Positions 9,829 to 18,052 of a DNA stretch of 64,000 nt are shown piece after piece (within the stretch, counting starts at the first letter, position 1; each line of letters starts with the position of its first letter). A model generated the notes under the pieces. The model was not told the origin of the DNA, made no database searches, and saw only the letters and a program-made list of their open reading frames with translations. The DNA comes from Spiroplasma platyhelix PALS-1. GTDB taxonomy: Bacteria > Bacillota_I > Bacilli_A > Mycoplasmatales > VBWQ01. Where the stretch lies: NCBI RefSeq assembly GCF_021496725.1, contig NZ_CP051215.1, positions 62,001 through 126,000 on the forward strand, read 5' to 3'. Position numbers and translations under genes: made by a program.

Positions 9829-10711
9829 TGAAAAAAAGAATCGTATTGGTGTTAAGGGTTTAGAAACAATTTTTGGTGATGGGATTAATGATTTGATTAC
9901 TAATATTGAGAATTCTCCTGAAGTGCAACAAAGTTTGGCACAAGAAGTTCCAATTAATAAAATTATTGCCAATCCCCATCAACCAAGAAAACACTTCAAC
10001 ACTCAAGAATTAGAAGAATTAAGTCAGTCAATTAAATTACATGGATTGATTCAACCAATTATTGTTAGCAAAATTAGCAATAGCAATTTCTATCAATTAA
10101 TTGCCGGAGAAAGAAGAAAAAAAGCAGCTGAGATGATTGGTTTAAAAACAATTAAAGCAGTAACAATTGATGCAACAGATCAACAAATGATGGAGTTTGC
10201 CTTAATTGAAAATATTCAAAGAGTAGATTTAAATGCTTTTGAAGAAGCTCAAGCTTATAAAACTTTAATTGACAAGATGAAATGAACTCATGAAGAGTTA
10301 GCAAAAAAAATAAATAAATCTCGTCCTCATATTACTAATACTCTAAGAATTTTAGATCTACCAGCTGAAGTTCTTAAGATGGTGAAGGATAATAAATTAA
10401 CTATGGGTCATGTTAGACCTTTATTGCAACTAACTCCAAACAGCAACTTAATTGTTGCTCTTGCTCATCGTGCTTTTAAAGAAAAATGAAGCGTTCGTAA
10501 AGTTGAAGACATGGTTAGAGTTCAACAATTATTAGGAACAAAAAAAAGTCCAAATATCAAAGATAGTGATATTTATTTGATTGAGTTGGAAAATAGTTTA
10601 AGCAAAAAATTAAGTGCAAAAGTAAAAATCAAAAATCAAAAATTAATTATCAGTTATCTCAACGATAAAGATTTAAATCGTTTGTTAGAATTATTAAAAT
10701 TAATTGATTAG
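9821..10711 (+). CDS. parB: Chromosome partitioning protein ParB (Spo0J)
   Basis: 296-residue ParB-family CTPase/DNA-binding protein. The N-terminal nucleotide-binding region has PHQPRKHF and the GERRKKAAEMIG box; the central helix-turn-helix region (TMGHVRPLLQL) and the C-terminal dimerisation segment follow. TGA at 10283-10285 and 10487-10489 are tryptophans. It overlaps parA by eight bases. Its 3' end overlaps the 3' end of the convergent methyltransferase gene by 12 bases. I found no good parS site in the window. Confidence 0.95.
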
Positions 10712-11983
10712 CATTGTTTCAACAATGCTAATTTTTTTATTTGCTTTAGCTTGATTATATTTTTGATTTCAAATTTCTTGAATAGTGTCACCCATAATTT
10801 TAATTAAATCAACTACCAATGCATTACCCATACAAAAATATCTGAATCTTTCAGGCATATCAGTATTAGTTCAATTATCTGGAAAGCCATTAATTCTTTC
10901 AGTTTCTATTGGTGTTAAGAATCTTAGTTTTTTTGTTTTTGGATCTTCAATTATATGAGAAGAACGATTAATAGTTCCTTCACTTGTTAGCATTGTTCTT
11001 GCTGGAGAATCAATTCTATCTGGAAATGACATTTTTCCTTCTGAATAATAATATATATCACCATTTGGTTTGGTTCTTTGAATTCTTTTTCTATCTTTTA
11101 ATAGGCTTAGTTTTAATTCTTGTGTTTTGGTTAGAAAATATTTTTCTTCAACTTCTGTATTTAAAATAATATTTTCTAAATTTTTAGGTTGGTTACTATA
11201 AGGTGTAGCGTTAGTAGTGAAAATTTTTGAGTCAATCATACAACCACTATTTTCAAAATCAAATTTAAAATTATCAGATACATCTGCTAAATCAATAAAT
11301 TTTTCTTTGATATCGATTTCTTTTATATTATCTAAAGTTATTTCTTTTATTATTTTAAAACTTTTAGCAAAAAAACCATTTTTTTGAATTAAATCTAATG
11401 CATTATCAAAATTAGCATTTTTAATATTAAAAAAATTAATATCTTTTTTATATGCAAATATAAAAATTCTTCTTCTTTTTTGTTGCAAACCATATTCTGC
11501 TGCATTAATTACTCTTCACTCAACATAATATCCGTTATTATATAAATCTCTTAATATTATTCCAAAATCACGACCTTTGTGAGTTTTAGTTGATTTTAAT
11601 AAACGATTAACATTTTCTAATAAAATCATTTTTGGTTTTTTTTCTTTAATAATTCAACTAATTTCTCATCAAAGAACTCCTTTTTCCCCTTGAATTCCGG
11701 CTGCTTGAGTTCGAGCTACTGAATAATCTTGACAAGGGAATCCTCCAACCAATAAATCAATATTATTAGGCATTTCAAATTTAGCAACAGCAATATCTTG
11801 GTTACTATGATTTTTACTATTACCAAAATTATGGTTATAGCAATTAAAAGCATGTTGTTTTTGTTTTTTAGGCTCTCATTGGTTAGCTCATACAGTATGA
11901 AAAATTTTTTTTGAAGAGTTTTCTAATCCTAATCTAAAACCTCCTACACCAGCAAATAGTTCAACTACTTTAATTTTTTTCAT
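10700..11983 (-). CDS. C5-cytosine DNA methyltransferase (type II, probably GATC)
   Basis: 427-residue SAM-dependent DNA (cytosine-5) methyltransferase. Ordered family motifs are present: I (FAGVGGF, residues 10-16), IV with catalytic Cys84 (GGFPCQDYS), VI (ENV, 123-125), VIII (QKRRRIFIF, near 168-176), IX (ERINGFPDN) and X (RYFCMGNAL). The variable region between VIII and IX should set the target. Because the divergent neighbour is a Sau3AI-type endonuclease, the likely target is GATC methylated on cytosine. The ATG at 11983 has AAGGGAG upstream. ATA codons are frequent. The 3' end runs 12 bases into parB, suggesting insertion right behind the parB stop. Function secure; specificity inferred. 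Confidence 0.93.
10707..10738 (+). terminator. Intrinsic terminator of parB
   Basis: Perfect 12-bp stem (ATTAGCATTGTT / AACAATGCTAAT) with a two-base centre and a run of T's. It begins inside the parB stop, and the same bases encode the last residues of the convergent methyltransferase. Confidence 0.9.
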
Positions 11984-12012
11984 AAAGTAAAAAGCTCCCT
12001 TCTTTTATAATC

Positions 12013-12041
12013 TTGTCTACTGTTTTTATTTGTAATATAAT
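12013..12041 (+). promoter_or_regulatory. Promoter of the restriction-helicase operon
   Basis: TTGTCT at 12013-12018 and TATAAT at 12036-12041 with a 17-base spacer, about 83 bases ahead of the endonuclease ATG, in the 141-base gap between divergent methyltransferase and endonuclease genes. Confidence 0.6.
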
Positions 12042-12124
12042 ATTAATAAATTTGATGCAAAAGATCAAGATGTTAAACACAATTAATTATAAATAATTTT
12101 ATAGGAAGATCAAGGATATAGATT

Positions 12125-13513
12125 ATGGAAGTAAAAACAGAAGAACAGGTACTTCAATTAGCTAATAGAATAAAAAACAAATCAATTAATCAAATTATTA
12201 AAGAATTAAGTAATACTAATGATGTTAACTTAGAAGATAAAGGTTATGTAGGTTATGTTATAGAAAGTTATTTTGGTGTTAAACGTAATAATTCTAGCAA
12301 ACCAGACCTTAGTCATTTAGGAATTGAAATTAAGACTACTCCACTTAAAAAATTAAAGAATAAAAACGAATTTTCTGTAAAAGAAAGAATGGTTTTAAAT
12401 ATTATTAATTTTCATCAAGAAAATTTAGAAGATTTTTATCAATCATCATTTTTTATTAAAAATAAAAAAATATTAATGGTATTTTATTTGTTTAATAATG
12501 AAATTTCAGATAAAAATTATTTTATTCATACTATTAATTATCATGATTTATCAAAAATTTCTTTAAAAGATTTGAATATAATTAAAAAAGACTGAGAGAT
12601 TATTGTTAATAAAATTAAAACTGGTAGAGCGCATGAATTATCAGAACGTTTAACTAAATATTTAGGAGCCTGTCCAAAAGGAAATAAGAAAAGTAATAGT
12701 TTAGTTACTCAACCTTTTTCAGATATTAAAGCAATGAGACGCGCTTATAGTTTTAAACCTCATTATTTGAAATATTTATTAATGCAAGATTGCTATAAAG
12801 ATAAATTAATAAAATTTAATATTAATGAAAATGATAATTTAGTTGATTTTATTTTTCAAAAACTCTTTCCTTATATTAATTTGACTGCTAAAGAATTATG
12901 CAAGAAATTCAATATTAATTATAAAAGGAAAGATAAACACTACGCAATTTTAAAAGAGATTTTTGGTATTAATAGTTTTAATAATGTTGAAGAATTATTA
13001 AAAGAGAATATTAAAATCCGTACTTATACAATTAAACCAAATAATGTAATACAAGAAGAATTTCCTTTTCTTATAGTAAATCCTCATGAATTTGAATATA
13101 AGAATGAGAATTCTTTTTATGATTCTGAACTTTATAATTATTTTATTAATACTAAATTTATTTTTGTGGGGTTTAAGAAAGATGATGATAATACTTATAT
13201 TGCAAAAATTTCTTATTTTGAGTTTCCTGAAAAATATCTAAATAAATTAGAAACTATATGAAATGATACACGAAGAAAGTTTCAAGGTGAGATTATATTA
13301 AATTTAAAATATACTAAAAAAGGTAAAATTATTACAACTAATAATTTAATTTCTAAAAAAAATGGTTATATTGGTCATATTAGACCAAGAGCTCAAGATA
13401 AAAATAATGAATATTGAATTCCTTGTGATAAAAAAATAACTAGACAATGTTATTGATTAAATAAAGAGTTTGTTCAAGAAAATTTTAAATATTTAACAAA
13501 AGATTTTAAATAA
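12125..13513 (+). CDS. Sau3AI/MutH-family type II restriction endonuclease
   Basis: 462-residue restriction enzyme, close in length to Sau3AI. The N-terminal half carries a PD-(D/E)xK core, Asp61, Glu68 and Lys70 in KPDLSHLGIEIKTTPL, with the same spacing as the MutH active site (Asp70, Glu77, Lys79). The LEDKGYVGYVIESYFG stretch before it also fits the family. As in Sau3AI, a second half (about residues 200-462) may be a pseudo-copy used for allosteric DNA binding. Established members cut GATC; that target is inferred here. In-frame TGA tryptophans occur near the middle and end. The start has a weak RBS (ATAGGAAG, with distant spacing). Very AT-rich and full of ATA codons. Confidence 0.88.
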
Positions 13514-13534
13514 AGAATAAAAAAGGGGTAAAAA

Positions 13535-14833
13535 ATGGAAACTGAAAATTATATTATCCAAAAAAATTTAGAAAAATTAATTTCTTTTAACAATCCTTCT
13601 CAGACTGGAATGATAATTCCTTCTTTTCCAAATAAAAAATTTGATGTTTATGAAGTTCCATTAGAATGATTAAAATTTAATCCTTATAATGATAGAATAG
13701 CGTCATATATTAGAAGTTATGAATTTAAAAATAAAAATAAAGATATAAATTATTGATTTTCTGATGAAGGACAAAAATTAATAGCAAATTTTTTATGAGA
13801 ATCAGATGTCAATAGTAATGATAAAACTAAAGAAGATTTATTAAGAAATAAACAGCATACTTTTGCTATTATAGATAAGAATGGTTTAATTATAGATGGT
13901 AATCGTCGTGTATGTATTTTAAAAAAAATTTGTTCGGAAATAAATTATAAAAATTTTAATGTTAATTTTTTTAATAAGTTAAAAACTATAATAATTTGGG
14001 AGCCTTTGAATAAAAATCAAGTTATGGAACTTGAAACAGAAATTCAGATGGGTCAAGATGGTAAAATTGATTACCAACCAATTGAAAAATATTTAAAAGT
14101 TAATAAATTATTGAATGAAGGATTTCCTGAAGAAAAAATTGCCAGTTTAATAAAAAAAGAAGTAAAAGATATTAGAGAATATAAACAAGTTTATAATTTA
14201 ATGAATAGTTATTTAGATTATATTAATGCTCCAAATCAATTTGAATTTATTAAAAGAATGGAAGATCATTTTATTAATTTAAATAAAACTTTAAATTATA
14301 TGAGAAACGAAAATTATAGTGCGGATTGAAAATATGATGATACAGATATTTTTGATTTTCAAATTATAGCGTTTTGTTTTGTTCGATCAGGATATGAAGG
14401 GAAAAAATTTAGAAAATTATTAGGTTCAGCAACTCAAAGAAATGGTCCTTTTGCTAATAAAAAAATGTGAGATAAATTTAAAGAAGAAATTTTGGAAGAG
14501 AATAATAAAGCTGAAAAACGAATGATGCATAGAATTGATTTAATGAAAAAAGAAGATCAAGAAGCTGTTTATAAAAATGATAGTAATAAAATTTATTTAA
14601 AAGATAAATATAATGAAGTTTTAAGAGATATATCTCGTATATTAGAAATTAAGAATGATGGTTTCAAAGGTCAAAAATTAATGAAATCCTGTTTGCAGTC
14701 TATAAATGAAATAAATAATATTTTTGAAGAAATATATATAACGTCTGAACTCAAAAAAGATTTTAAAAAAATAAAAGAAATAATTTTAAATATTGATAAA
14801 AAATTAATTGAAAAAGGTAAAAAAGATGATTAA
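13535..14833 (+). CDS. ParB/Srx-domain protein of the defence island
   Basis: 432-residue protein with an N-terminal ParB/sulfiredoxin-like fold: VPLEWLKFNPYNDR near residue 45 and IIDGNRRVCILKKI near 118-131, where DGNRR matches the GERR-type nucleotide-binding box. A region near residue 190 (LLNEGFPEEKIASLIKKEV) resembles the helix-turn-helix of ParB proteins. The C-terminal third is charged and helical, unlike chromosomal ParB. It is unrelated in length and neighbourhood to the chromosomal parB at 9821. It starts 21 bases after the endonuclease stop with GGGG as RBS, and overlaps the helicase gene by eight bases, so it probably works with them. Whether it binds, hydrolyses CTP or cuts DNA is unknown. 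Confidence 0.7.
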
Positions 14834-16862
14834 ACTAGAGATTTCTAATGATAATATGATTATAATTTTAAATGCTAGTTACTTATCAGATGATAATAAG
14901 AGAAATTTAGATCTTTTTTTAGGTTCTAGTTCAAGAATTGCACAAAATTTTTTAACTATAAAAAATGATACGCAAGTTAATACTCAAAATTTATCATATT
15001 CTTTAATTCAAATAAAAAAATATTTAGATAAAAGTAGAATTAAATATATTTTAGGAGAAACTATTAAAAAATTTGAATCTAAACAAACTTTAGTTAAAGA
15101 TAATTTTTTTAAATTGAAAAAAATTGGTGAAAATTTAAAATTGAATATAGAGATAATTCCTGAAGAATTTATTTGAGAATATAAAGATTTTGAAAAATTT
15201 ACTAAAAAAAGTTTCCAAAAAGAACATATCCCATATCCAAATCAATTGCGTAGCGCATTTTTTCATTTAAAAATGAAAAAATCTTGTAATTTTTCTGATC
15301 CAGGAACTGGGAAAACAACTATAGTTTATAGTTTATTTAACTGATTAAAAAATAAAGAAGAAGATGAAATTGATGCTATTTTTATTATAGGTCCACTGTC
15401 TTCATTTCATTCTTGAGAAAAAGAATATGAAGAATGTTTTTGAAGAGTTCCAAATTGTATTGATTTTAAAGCAAAAAGTTTTGCGAGTCGTCTTAAAATT
15501 AGTAATATAGAAGATTTAGACAGAGTATATTTTTTAAATTATGATAGAGTTGATTCTTATAAGGAAGAATTAATTGAATTCTTTCAAAAGTATAGAATAT
15601 TATTAGTTTTGGATGAAGCACATAGACTTAAAAATCCAGTATCAAGAAGATTTAAAGCATTGAATTGTATTTTAAATGCTTCAGGTATTAAAATTCCTTA
15701 TCAGATTATACTAACAGGTACACCAATTCCTAACGGATACGAAAATTTTCATTCTTACTTTGATTTAATAAGAAAAGAAGAACCTAAAATTCTTTCTAAA
15801 CAATTTCACGAACTTAGAAAAATTGAGAATACTGATTTATTAAAAATTGCTGAACTTACAAAAGAAATTTTTCCGTTTTTTTATAAGTTAAAAAAAGAAA
15901 AAATGAAGAATTTTAAAATTCCTATTGAAAAGTTACAAGATTGTAGTATGGATGAATTCCAAAATGAATTATTTGACAGACTTCGAAAGAATTTAATTGA
16001 TTCTTGAGATAAAGAAAATGATATTCAAATTCATTTAAATTTTTATAGAAGTAAATTAATTAGATTAATGCAAATACAAACAGATCTTAGAATGATATCA
16101 CAGCCAGTAGATAATATTATTTATTCAAATACTAATTTAAATGATAATGATGAAGATTTAGATGATAATGATTTTGAAGAAATAAAAAATCTTTTAAAAA
16201 ATAAATCGTTTGAAAAGGAAATAGAAGAATTAGCACTTAATTCTTCTGATATCAAAGTTAAATTAAATACTTATGTTAACCAAAAGAAAATACCTGAAAA
16301 ATATATTCAATTAATAGAAATAGTTAAAAAATTATTGAATAACAATCAAAAAATTATAATTTGAACAAATTGAATTTTTACTATTAATGAAATTCATAGA
16401 CTCTTAAAAAATGAAGGTATAAATTCTGGTTTATTATATGGAAAAATTAAATATGAAGAAAAATTGAAAACTATTGATAAATTTAATAACCTTGAAAGCA
16501 ATGAACTAATGGTTTTAATAGCAAATCCAGCTTCAGTTGCAGAATCAATTTCACTTCATAAAGCTTGTCAGAACGCGATATATTTTGATATTAATTATAA
16601 TGTTACAAATTATTTTCAATCAAAAGATAGAATTCATAGATACGGGATGCTTCCAGACAAAGAGCAAGTAACATATTATTATTTTTTATCGGGCAATGGA
16701 TTAGAAAAATATATTTTTAATTCTAATAAATCAAAAGAACAACAAATGAAAGAATTTTTTATTTCAAATGACAAAACATACAACAGTTTTATTCCTGAAT
16801 CTACTGATGTTGAAGGAATGAAAAAAGTAATTAACATACTAAGAAAAACAAATATAGACTAG
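14826..16862 (+). CDS. SNF2-like superfamily 2 helicase/translocase
   Basis: 678-residue ATPase. After an N-terminal domain of about 130 residues that I do not recognise come the SF2 motifs: a Q-like segment (YPNQLRSAF), motif I DPGTGKTT near residue 158, Ia (GPLSSFHSWEKEY), motif II DEAH near 263 (LDEAHRLKNP, as in SNF2 proteins), motif III TGTPIPN near 298, and a C-terminal lobe with VAESISLHKACQNAIYFD and QSKDRIHRYG (motifs V and VI). Such enzymes usually translocate along duplex DNA. It begins within the ParB-like gene, ATG overlapping by eight bases. Codon use is ATA-rich, like the rest of the island. A link to restriction is inferred only from context. Confidence 0.85.
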
Positions 16863-16954
16863 TTTATTATTTGTTTTAATAAAAATATTCTTTTTTTAGA
16901 TTTTATGTTAGCATAGTATATGAAATAAAATCTTAAATAATCAAGGAGACAATT

Positions 16955-18052
16955 ATGCTAACAGCAGGAATTGTTGGCTTACCTAATGTTGGTAAGTCAA
17001 CCCTTTTTAAAGCAATAACTAATTCTCAAGTTTTAATCGAGAATTATCCTTTTGCTACTATTAAACCTAATATTGCAACTTGTCCTGTTAGTGATCCAAG
17101 AGTAAAGAAAATAACAGAAATTTTTCAACCTGAAAAAATTGTGCCAACAGTTTTAGAAATGCATGATATTGCCGGGTTAGTTAAGGGTGCTCATAAGGGT
17201 GAAGGTTTAGGAAATCAATTCTTAGCAAATATTAGAGAAGTTGATGCTATTTGCCAAGTAGTTCGATGCTTTGAAGATAGTAACATCACTCATGTTGCTA
17301 ATAAAATTGATCCTGTTGATGATTTTGAAGTAATTGAATTAGAATTAATTTTTGCTGATCAACAAGTGATTAAAAATCGGTTAGAAAAGACAGTTAGAAA
17401 AGTTAAAGTTACTAATGATAAGGCAGCTTTAAAAGAAATTGAATTATTAAAAAAAATTAATCAAGCACTTGATCAAGGAGTTGTTCTTCGTAATCAAAAG
17501 TTAACTGAAGATGAACAAGAATTAGTTAAGCCATTTAATTTCTTAACAATCAAACCAGTGGTTGTTATTGCAAATATTGGTGAAAGAGATTTATCTAATA
17601 AAGATAACAAACATCTTGAAGCTTTAGAAAATTATGCAAAAGAAAAAGGTTTAGAAGTAATTTCAGTTTGTGCCAAAATTGAAAGTGAAATTGCTGAACT
17701 TGAAGATGCAGAAAAAACTGAATATCTAAAAATGTTAGATATTGAAATGTCAGGAATTGAACAAATTGTTTTAGCAACTTATAAATTATTAAATTTAGCA
17801 ACATTTTTTACTGCTGGACCAAAAGAAGTTCATGCTTGAACTTTTATTAAAGGAATGAAAGCACCTGAGTGTGCTGGAATTATTCATACTGATTTTATGA
17901 AAGGATTTATTAGAGCTGAGATTTATAACTATCAAGATTTAATTATTTCTGGCGATGAAAAAAAAGTAAAAGATGCTGGAAAATTAAGAATTGAAGGAAA
18001 AAATTATCAAATGCAAGATGGAGACATTTGTCATTTTCGTTTTAATGTTTAA
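16955..18052 (+). CDS. ychF: YchF/Obg-like GTPase (ATPase)
   Basis: 365-residue member of the universally conserved YchF/OLA1 group, a ribosome-associated ATPase in the Obg family. G1 is [11 protein letters not shown] (residues 7-17), G3 [20 protein letters not shown] follows, and the C-terminal TGS domain ends with the usual [11 protein letters not shown]. The family's ATP-specifying motif lies in VVIANIGE rather than NKxD. RBS AAGGAG is well placed. The only break is a TGA tryptophan at 17837-17839. Codon use returns to the host pattern here, marking the right edge of the accessory island. Confidence 0.96.

Follow-up and report, generated by a model that had tools for sequence, protein, structure and literature searches.

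A Sau3AI-type restriction–modification locus of Spiroplasma platyhelix with a conserved ParB–SNF2 gene pair, a candidate NTP-driven restriction system

Results

A four-gene island between spo0J and ychF

We analyzed a 64,000-nucleotide stretch of the Spiroplasma platyhelix PALS-1 genome (NZ_CP051215.1, positions 62,001 to 126,000; hereafter the window), in which four genes at 10700-16862 encode a C5-cytosine DNA methyltransferase (M), a Sau3AI-type restriction endonuclease (R), a ParB-like protein and an SNF2-family ATPase (Table 1). All four are intact open reading frames (ORFs) under genetic code 4, in which TGA is read as tryptophan; when read with code 11, each of them is broken by TGA codons, so that the reading of the island depends on code 4, which is consistent with a mollicute genome (744 kb, single contig). 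The ParB-like gene follows the endonuclease gene by 21 bases and is itself overlapped for 8 bases by the SNF2 gene, counted from its ATG start, exactly as a first-pass annotation of this DNA had described. With a G+C content of 22%, against 30% in the remainder of the window, the island is flanked by the host soj-spo0J pair on one side and by ychF on the other. An identical four-gene set occupies the same site in Spiroplasma sp. JKS002669 (L012 in our numbering of loci), its products being 75% (M), 74% (R), 56% (ParB-like) and 50% (SNF2) identical to those of the window, and the system would have been present by the time these two species separated, unless it was exchanged. In a third genome of the genus, the same gap holds different ORFs, including an N6 methyltransferase (L169:7170-10360; window gap 10711-16955). 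Since two genomes carry the Sau3AI system there and a third carries other genes, the spo0J-ychF gap is a variable hotspot. The third genome also has a Dam-like gene inserted before rsmG (L169:12814-14487).

Table 1. Features of the window and of the single-domain Sau3AI forms in related loci (coordinates without a locus number refer to the window).
Feature	Position	Strand	Basis
C5-cytosine DNA methyltransferase, Sau3AI-type partner, probably GATC, 427 aa	10700..11983	-	PF00145, TIGR00675, PADLOC MTase_II, C5 tree
Divergent promoter region with two AAGATCAAG copies, putative regulatory role	11984..12124	.	Sequence and alignment with L012
Sau3AI-family type II restriction endonuclease, 462 aa	12125..13513	+	NF040973, PDB 4pxg, catalytic triad
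ParB-superfamily protein, 432 aa	13535..14833	+	Family alignments, AlphaFold model, Foldseek
SNF2-family ATPase, 678 aa counted from ATG	14826..16862	+	PF00176, PF00271, motifs, AlphaFold model and Foldseek
Sau3AI C-domain alone, no MutH domain	L010:8104-8847, L050:7749-9128, L051:9850-10698, L057:12185-12898, L067:12202-12894
MutH-type catalytic N-domain alone, Sau3AI family, no C-domain	L022:4938-5699, L096:13584-14384

The methyltransferase and the endonuclease

The methyltransferase scores 225.7 bits against PF00145 (cut-off 22), 246.4 bits against TIGR00675 and 505.6 bits against the PADLOC model MTase_II. Adjoining it in divergent orientation, which makes it the cognate-type methyltransferase of a Sau3AI restriction–modification (R-M) system, is an endonuclease that scores 379.9 bits against the Sau3AI equivalog NF040973 (cut-off 300) and matches the Sau3AI crystal structure PDB 4pxg over its length (4.6e-64). 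Its N-terminal MutH-type catalytic domain keeps the triad D61, E68 and K70, and its C-terminal recognition/effector domain is also present. The pair of facing genes recognized in the first-pass annotation, a C5 methyltransferase on the minus strand and a Sau3AI/MutH-type endonuclease on the plus strand, is thereby borne out. Because the window holds no other nuclease, the Sau3AI-type protein is the cutter here, and the specificity of the system is probably GATC. For Sau3AI itself, M and R suffice; the window operon adds two genes after R.

The divergent M/R promoter contains two direct repeats of AAGATCAAG (12061-12069 and 12106-12114), each with a GATC (at 12063 and 12108), against an expectation of about 0.3 GATC for the region. 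In Spiroplasma sp. JKS002669, both copies are conserved, as are their positions and surroundings, and autoregulation through methylation of the system's own GATC site is a reasonable guess. Across the window, GATC occurs at 0.71 of its expected frequency, compared to 1.01 in two other Spiroplasma loci, with several unrelated palindromes equally low or lower. A scan of viral sequences with the endonuclease as query gave no match.

The ParB-like protein and the SNF2 ATPase

The ParB-like protein of the window matches no family in Pfam, NCBIfam, PADLOC or PHROGs. Its AlphaFold (AF2) model has a predicted local distance difference test (pLDDT) score of 91.4, and the top 20 PDB matches of this model in Foldseek are all ParB, KorB, Noc or Spo0J, with probabilities of 0.99-1.00. 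Among 73 homologues, weak matches to ddrB-ParB (10/73) and HTH_ParB (5/73) are found. The layout consists of a ParB-N part, a helix-turn-helix (HTH) fold and a helical C-terminal part, with the motifs NxxNxR and DGNRR (residues 121-125), the latter resembling, together with adjacent conserved residues, the boxes of ParB proteins. Given the structural matches of the model and the weak matches of the homologues, membership of the ParB superfamily, which the first-pass annotation had proposed from the DGNRR box, is well supported, and the protein may bind CTP or ATP. A single-protein sequence search of the PDB returned only ClpB, which we judged a chance match.

For the SNF2 protein, both SNF2-rel_dom (PF00176, 76.4 bits) and Helicase_C (PF00271, 46.6 bits) are over their cut-offs. 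The DPGTGKTT (158), DEAH (263) and TGTP (297) motifs on which its earlier assignment had been based are all present, as are the motif VI arginines (QSKDRIHR, 598). Its AF2 model (pLDDT 84.2) retrieves SNF2 remodellers in Foldseek, and 88 of 93 SNF2 members of the family share a Walker A region of unusual form, NF[SA]xPGxGKT, which in the window protein has the signature NFSxPGxGKT.

ParB-like and SNF2 genes form an obligate pair

Relatives were sought with ParB-like profiles alone in plasmids, phages, viral contigs, genomes of the same phylum and contigs across phyla, where the contig-scan part of the sample comprises 79 contigs across many phyla, the best 79 of 198 confirmed stretches. This yielded 105 ParB-like relatives from Bacillota, Bacteroidota, Pseudomonadota, Chloroflexota, candidate phyla, prophages and plasmids. 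An SNF2 gene lies directly after the ParB-like gene on the same strand in 96 of them, at a median gap of -1 base; in the remaining nine, the next gene encodes a PGAP1-like alpha/beta hydrolase (six) or the ParB-like gene is a fragment or at a contig end (three). Reciprocally, an SNF2 profile at 1e-50 matches 8 of 382 genomes, exactly those 8 that have an intact ParB match, while a ninth genome has a ParB fragment only. Distances among the ParB-like proteins correlate most strongly with those among the SNF2 proteins (0.94), followed by the BanI-like endonucleases (0.92), NOV_C (0.75) and the C5 methyltransferases (0.39). The ParB–SNF2 pair is obligate and co-inherited.

Two further arrangements were seen around the ParB-like gene. 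In a sister system, the PGAP1-like hydrolase replaces SNF2 (L059:13322-15422, L091, L097, L108, L109, L120), and these loci mostly adjoin a C5 methyltransferase and sometimes Vsr. Directly 5' of ParB-SNF2, four loci encode large proteins of 790-1010 residues (L047, L048, L011 (cluster 17), L049:10001-12427), possibly a recognition subunit; the one in L047 has a sigma-70 region 4-like HTH.

The nuclease is exchanged between loci

A nuclease was identified in 86 of the 93 loci with an intact pair. The commonest gene after SNF2 encodes a NOV_C/DUF3883 protein, either alone (37/93) or with a BanI/DpnII-like restriction endonuclease before ParB (26/93). Other loci carry an HNH nuclease (L055-L057, L067), a PLD domain fused to the SNF2 N-terminus with the motif HxK...GSxNET (L010, L047, L049-L052) or a type III-like Res protein. 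The first-pass annotation had suggested searching for ParB-like/SNF2 pairs beside Sau3AI-type genes elsewhere, and these were found in about 17 of 104 loci (Bacillota, Bacteroidota, candidate phyla, prophages); most relatives pair ParB–SNF2 with other C5 methyltransferases and with NOV_C, BanI-like, BglII-like or type III-like enzymes. In L095 and L099, candidate-phylum relatives nested inside the NOV_C clade, Sau3AI stands at the exact NOV_C position. The nuclease is thus exchanged between ParB–SNF2 loci.

Sau3AI proteins in these loci are either full-length or consist of a single domain, which is the catalytic N-domain in some loci and the non-catalytic C-domain in others (Table 1). The C-only forms always adjoin ParB-SNF2, and the operons concerned have a nuclease of the PLD or HNH type, as would be expected if recognition and cutting were separable subunits of one machine.

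Conversely, of 295 genomes of the phylum, 41 have Sau3AI-family genes, and a ParB-like gene is present in just 3 of the 41. Since plain Sau3AI systems are common, we regard ParB–SNF2 as an enhancement or variant rather than a requirement of Sau3AI.

Modification genes around the pair

A C5 methyltransferase is found in 82 of 104 loci. The background, drawn from the phylum of the window only, is 321 C5-methyltransferase genes in 195 genomes, or about 1.4 per Mb and 0.025 per 18 kb, which makes the excess roughly thirty-fold. In another five loci, the methyltransferase is type III-like and has a ResIII partner; the modifying enzyme can also be N6-type, and Vsr genes are frequent (24 loci). On the C5 tree, all 15 enzymes associated with Sau3AI, that of the window included, fall into a single clade (support 98), which takes 1 change, and none of 500 shuffles gave so low a value. 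On the ParB–SNF2 tree of the same entries, however, Sau3AI association takes 4 changes (9 on a larger set); these counts are approximate, but their direction is firm. Because the C5 clade is single and yet scattered on the ParB–SNF2 tree, we conclude that the GATC module moved as a block between chassis and was plugged in repeatedly. The methyltransferase, too, is exchanged while ParB–SNF2 is co-inherited.

This pattern bears on two explanations that give the pair no part in cutting. If the genes were unrelated and merely shared a defence island, the hotspot character of the spo0J-ychF gap, with its N6 methyltransferase in another genome of the genus, would be expected; overlapping genes, obligate pairing, the C5 enrichment and repeated slot-for-slot exchange of nucleases would not, and we consider this very improbable. 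Alternatively, the pair may aid modification or maintenance, with SNF2 clearing or remodelling DNA for the methyltransferase or ParB stabilizing the locus. In eukaryotes, SNF2 remodellers such as HELLS/DDM1 are needed to maintain 5-methylcytosine (5mC) (PMC10538959), and the strong association of the pair with C5 methyltransferases would fit such a role. However, co-inheritance is weakest for the methyltransferase (rho 0.39), which is sometimes N6-type, the nuclease is more tightly bound to the shared operon, and remodelling for methylation is rarely needed on naked bacterial DNA, all of which makes this explanation improbable.

Relation to known systems

ParB-like and SNF2-like proteins also occur together in the Dpd 7-deazaguanine system, as DpdB and DpdE. 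The first-pass annotation had drawn a comparison with Dpd and DISARM, and the shared kinds of protein stand; however, the systems are not close relatives, with the SNF2 proteins scoring 21-50 bits where the cut-offs of the DpdE/DrmD models are 500-950. For Dpd, the DpdE model gives 21.7 bits (cut-off 500), no DpdA-K set is near, and the window differs in having neither DpdA nor base-synthesis genes nearby, modification being by C5 methylation. For DISARM (DrmA, DrmB/DUF1998, DrmC PLD), the DrmD model gives 50.2 of 610 bits, and no DUF1998 gene is near, as had been observed earlier, with soj-spo0J and ychF as flanks. Zorya and BREX models score far under their cut-offs, and their partner genes are missing. 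One could still read the weak SNF2 similarity to the DrmD, DpdE, ZorD and BrxH models as the trace of a DISARM, Dpd, Zorya or BREX member degenerated by gene loss. Against NCBIfam cut-offs of 500-1500, with hallmark genes absent in the window and a family that keeps its own constant gene set across many phyla, we give this hardly any credence.

Closer parallels lie among NTP-dependent R-M systems, NTP standing for nucleoside triphosphate. CglI and NgoAVII combine a C5 methyltransferase, a nuclease and a superfamily 2 (SF2) ATPase, and cleave after translocation (PMC4267653, PMC5737866). Like the window, they have a C5 methyltransferase (theirs being active on its own) with the nuclease and the SF2 ATPase as separate proteins; their nuclease is of the PLD type, as in the PLD-SNF2 subgroup of the relatives, and the dependence of their cleavage on NTP hydrolysis and translocation may, by analogy of working alone, extend to the window system. 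They differ in having a Z1/DEAD ATPase rather than SNF2, a PLD-B3 nuclease rather than a MutH-type one, and no ParB-like protein. The window has the C5 enzyme in common with them, but with its MutH-type nuclease and SNF2 ATPase it does not belong to this group.

The MORC/GHKL R-M operons comprise a C5 methyltransferase, Vsr, a SWI2/SNF2 helicase and interchangeable nucleases of the HNH, REase-fold or PLD kind (PMC2292703), the same gene company around an NTP-dependent DNA-acting protein as in the ParB-SNF2 loci. In those operons, however, a GHKL/MORC ATPase stands where the ParB-superfamily protein stands here, no GHKL protein is among the four window genes, and PMC2292703 makes no mention of ParB. 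An SNF2 helicase with a DUF3883/NOV_C endonuclease domain has likewise been described in R-M operons, but as a fusion with HEPN/DUF499 neighbours and with no ParB partner stated (PMC3710099). For the set of ParB, SNF2 and restriction genes, we found no curated model and no open-access paper describing it, subscription journals and REBASE annotations lying outside the search.

Discussion

A proposed NTP-driven restriction arm and the rival of a linked second defence

We favor, as fairly probable, the reading that the island encodes a type II-like R-M system with an NTP-driven ParB–SNF2 module in its restriction arm, through which the detection of unmodified DNA would be linked to an interchangeable nuclease. 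The methyltransferase would protect host GATC sites by 5mC, and the Sau3AI-type protein would recognize GATC and supply the cutting site. The ParB-like protein, with its predicted nucleotide-binding ParB-N part, HTH and helical tail, would be loaded onto DNA and serve there as a clamp or anchor gated by nucleotide, and the SNF2 ATPase, encoded by the overlapping gene, would act with it by translocating on double-stranded DNA. The resulting complex could then scan for, or communicate between, unmethylated sites and license the nuclease, with ParB-SNF2 serving as a portable chassis shared by members that have other methyltransferases and nucleases. Complex formation, clamp and translocation activity, nuclease activation and GATC specificity are all steps that we infer. 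Modification, cutting and an ATP-driven DNA-tracking arm, the composite GATC system of the first-pass annotation, thus remain our best reading, while the implied tie of the pair to Sau3AI and GATC falls away, the pair not being specific to them.

The main rival holds that a plain Sau3AI M-R pair is linked to a second defence, in which ParB-SNF2 senses phage DNA, replication or an attack on the R-M system and triggers an effector of its own, as a guard or backup. PrrC beside EcoprrI is a precedent for such a guard. The exchangeable effectors encoded by the third gene speak for it, as do the alpha/beta hydrolase in place of SNF2 and the commonness of plain Sau3AI systems. Several observations weigh against our preferred reading, part of them in favor of this rival. 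Three loci (L055, L056 and L112) have a Sau3AI system that is complete and, next to it, an equally complete ParB module with a nuclease of its own, an arrangement more suggestive of adjacency than of integration. In Pedobacter planticolens (L082:12214-13266), the gene after SNF2 encodes not NOV_C but a protein with a ThsB-like TIR domain (PADLOC 9.5e-46) that retains the N-terminal part of the family; this variant and the six hydrolase pairings are more like a trigger-and-effector design. Sau3AI is known to cut alone and without ATP, and most Sau3AI systems do without the pair, so that cutting might not require ParB–SNF2. ParB and SNF2 have diverged faster (56 and 50% identity between the two Spiroplasma copies) than M and R (75 and 74%). 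In addition, the scattered placement of the Sau3AI association rests in part on trees built with fasttree, in which several deep branches are weak.

Against a guard, the window, L012, L095 and L099 have no separate effector, and in L095 and L099 Sau3AI sits in the NOV_C slot. Integration with Sau3AI is favored in the window because no separate effector is present there. The largest group, moreover, consists of ParB, SNF2 and NOV_C (37/93), nearly always with a C5 methyltransferase; because it has no other identified restriction endonuclease, the module itself must restrict in this group. We therefore regard the guard explanation as unlikely.

Implications for the family

Beyond the window, we tentatively propose, with somewhat less than even confidence, that these loci make up a widespread and uncatalogued class of NTP-driven restriction systems. 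Such a class would have a constant chassis of ParB clamp and SNF2 translocase, with ParB in the role of GHKL/MORC, and swappable effectors (NOV_C, HNH, PLD, MutH, even TIR) and specificity modules, the latter being a methyltransferase with or without a recognition domain (Sau3AI-C, BanI-like, BglII-like). Like GHKL proteins, ParB proteins are clamps gated by nucleotides, and restriction driven by a helicase has precedents in type I, type III and CglI systems. In the open-access literature, we found no report of a ParB-type clamp as part of a restriction machine. The ParB component is represented by no model in curated defence libraries, and the system therefore goes unrecognized in present genome annotation.

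If this proposal is true, it would add a ParB family that acts outside DNA partitioning, and it would explain many “orphan” C5 methyltransferases without a recognizable nuclease, through the group of C5, ParB, SNF2 and NOV_C. The N-only and C-only forms of Sau3AI would then be natural swaps of recognition and cutting domains, making the mechanism directly testable.

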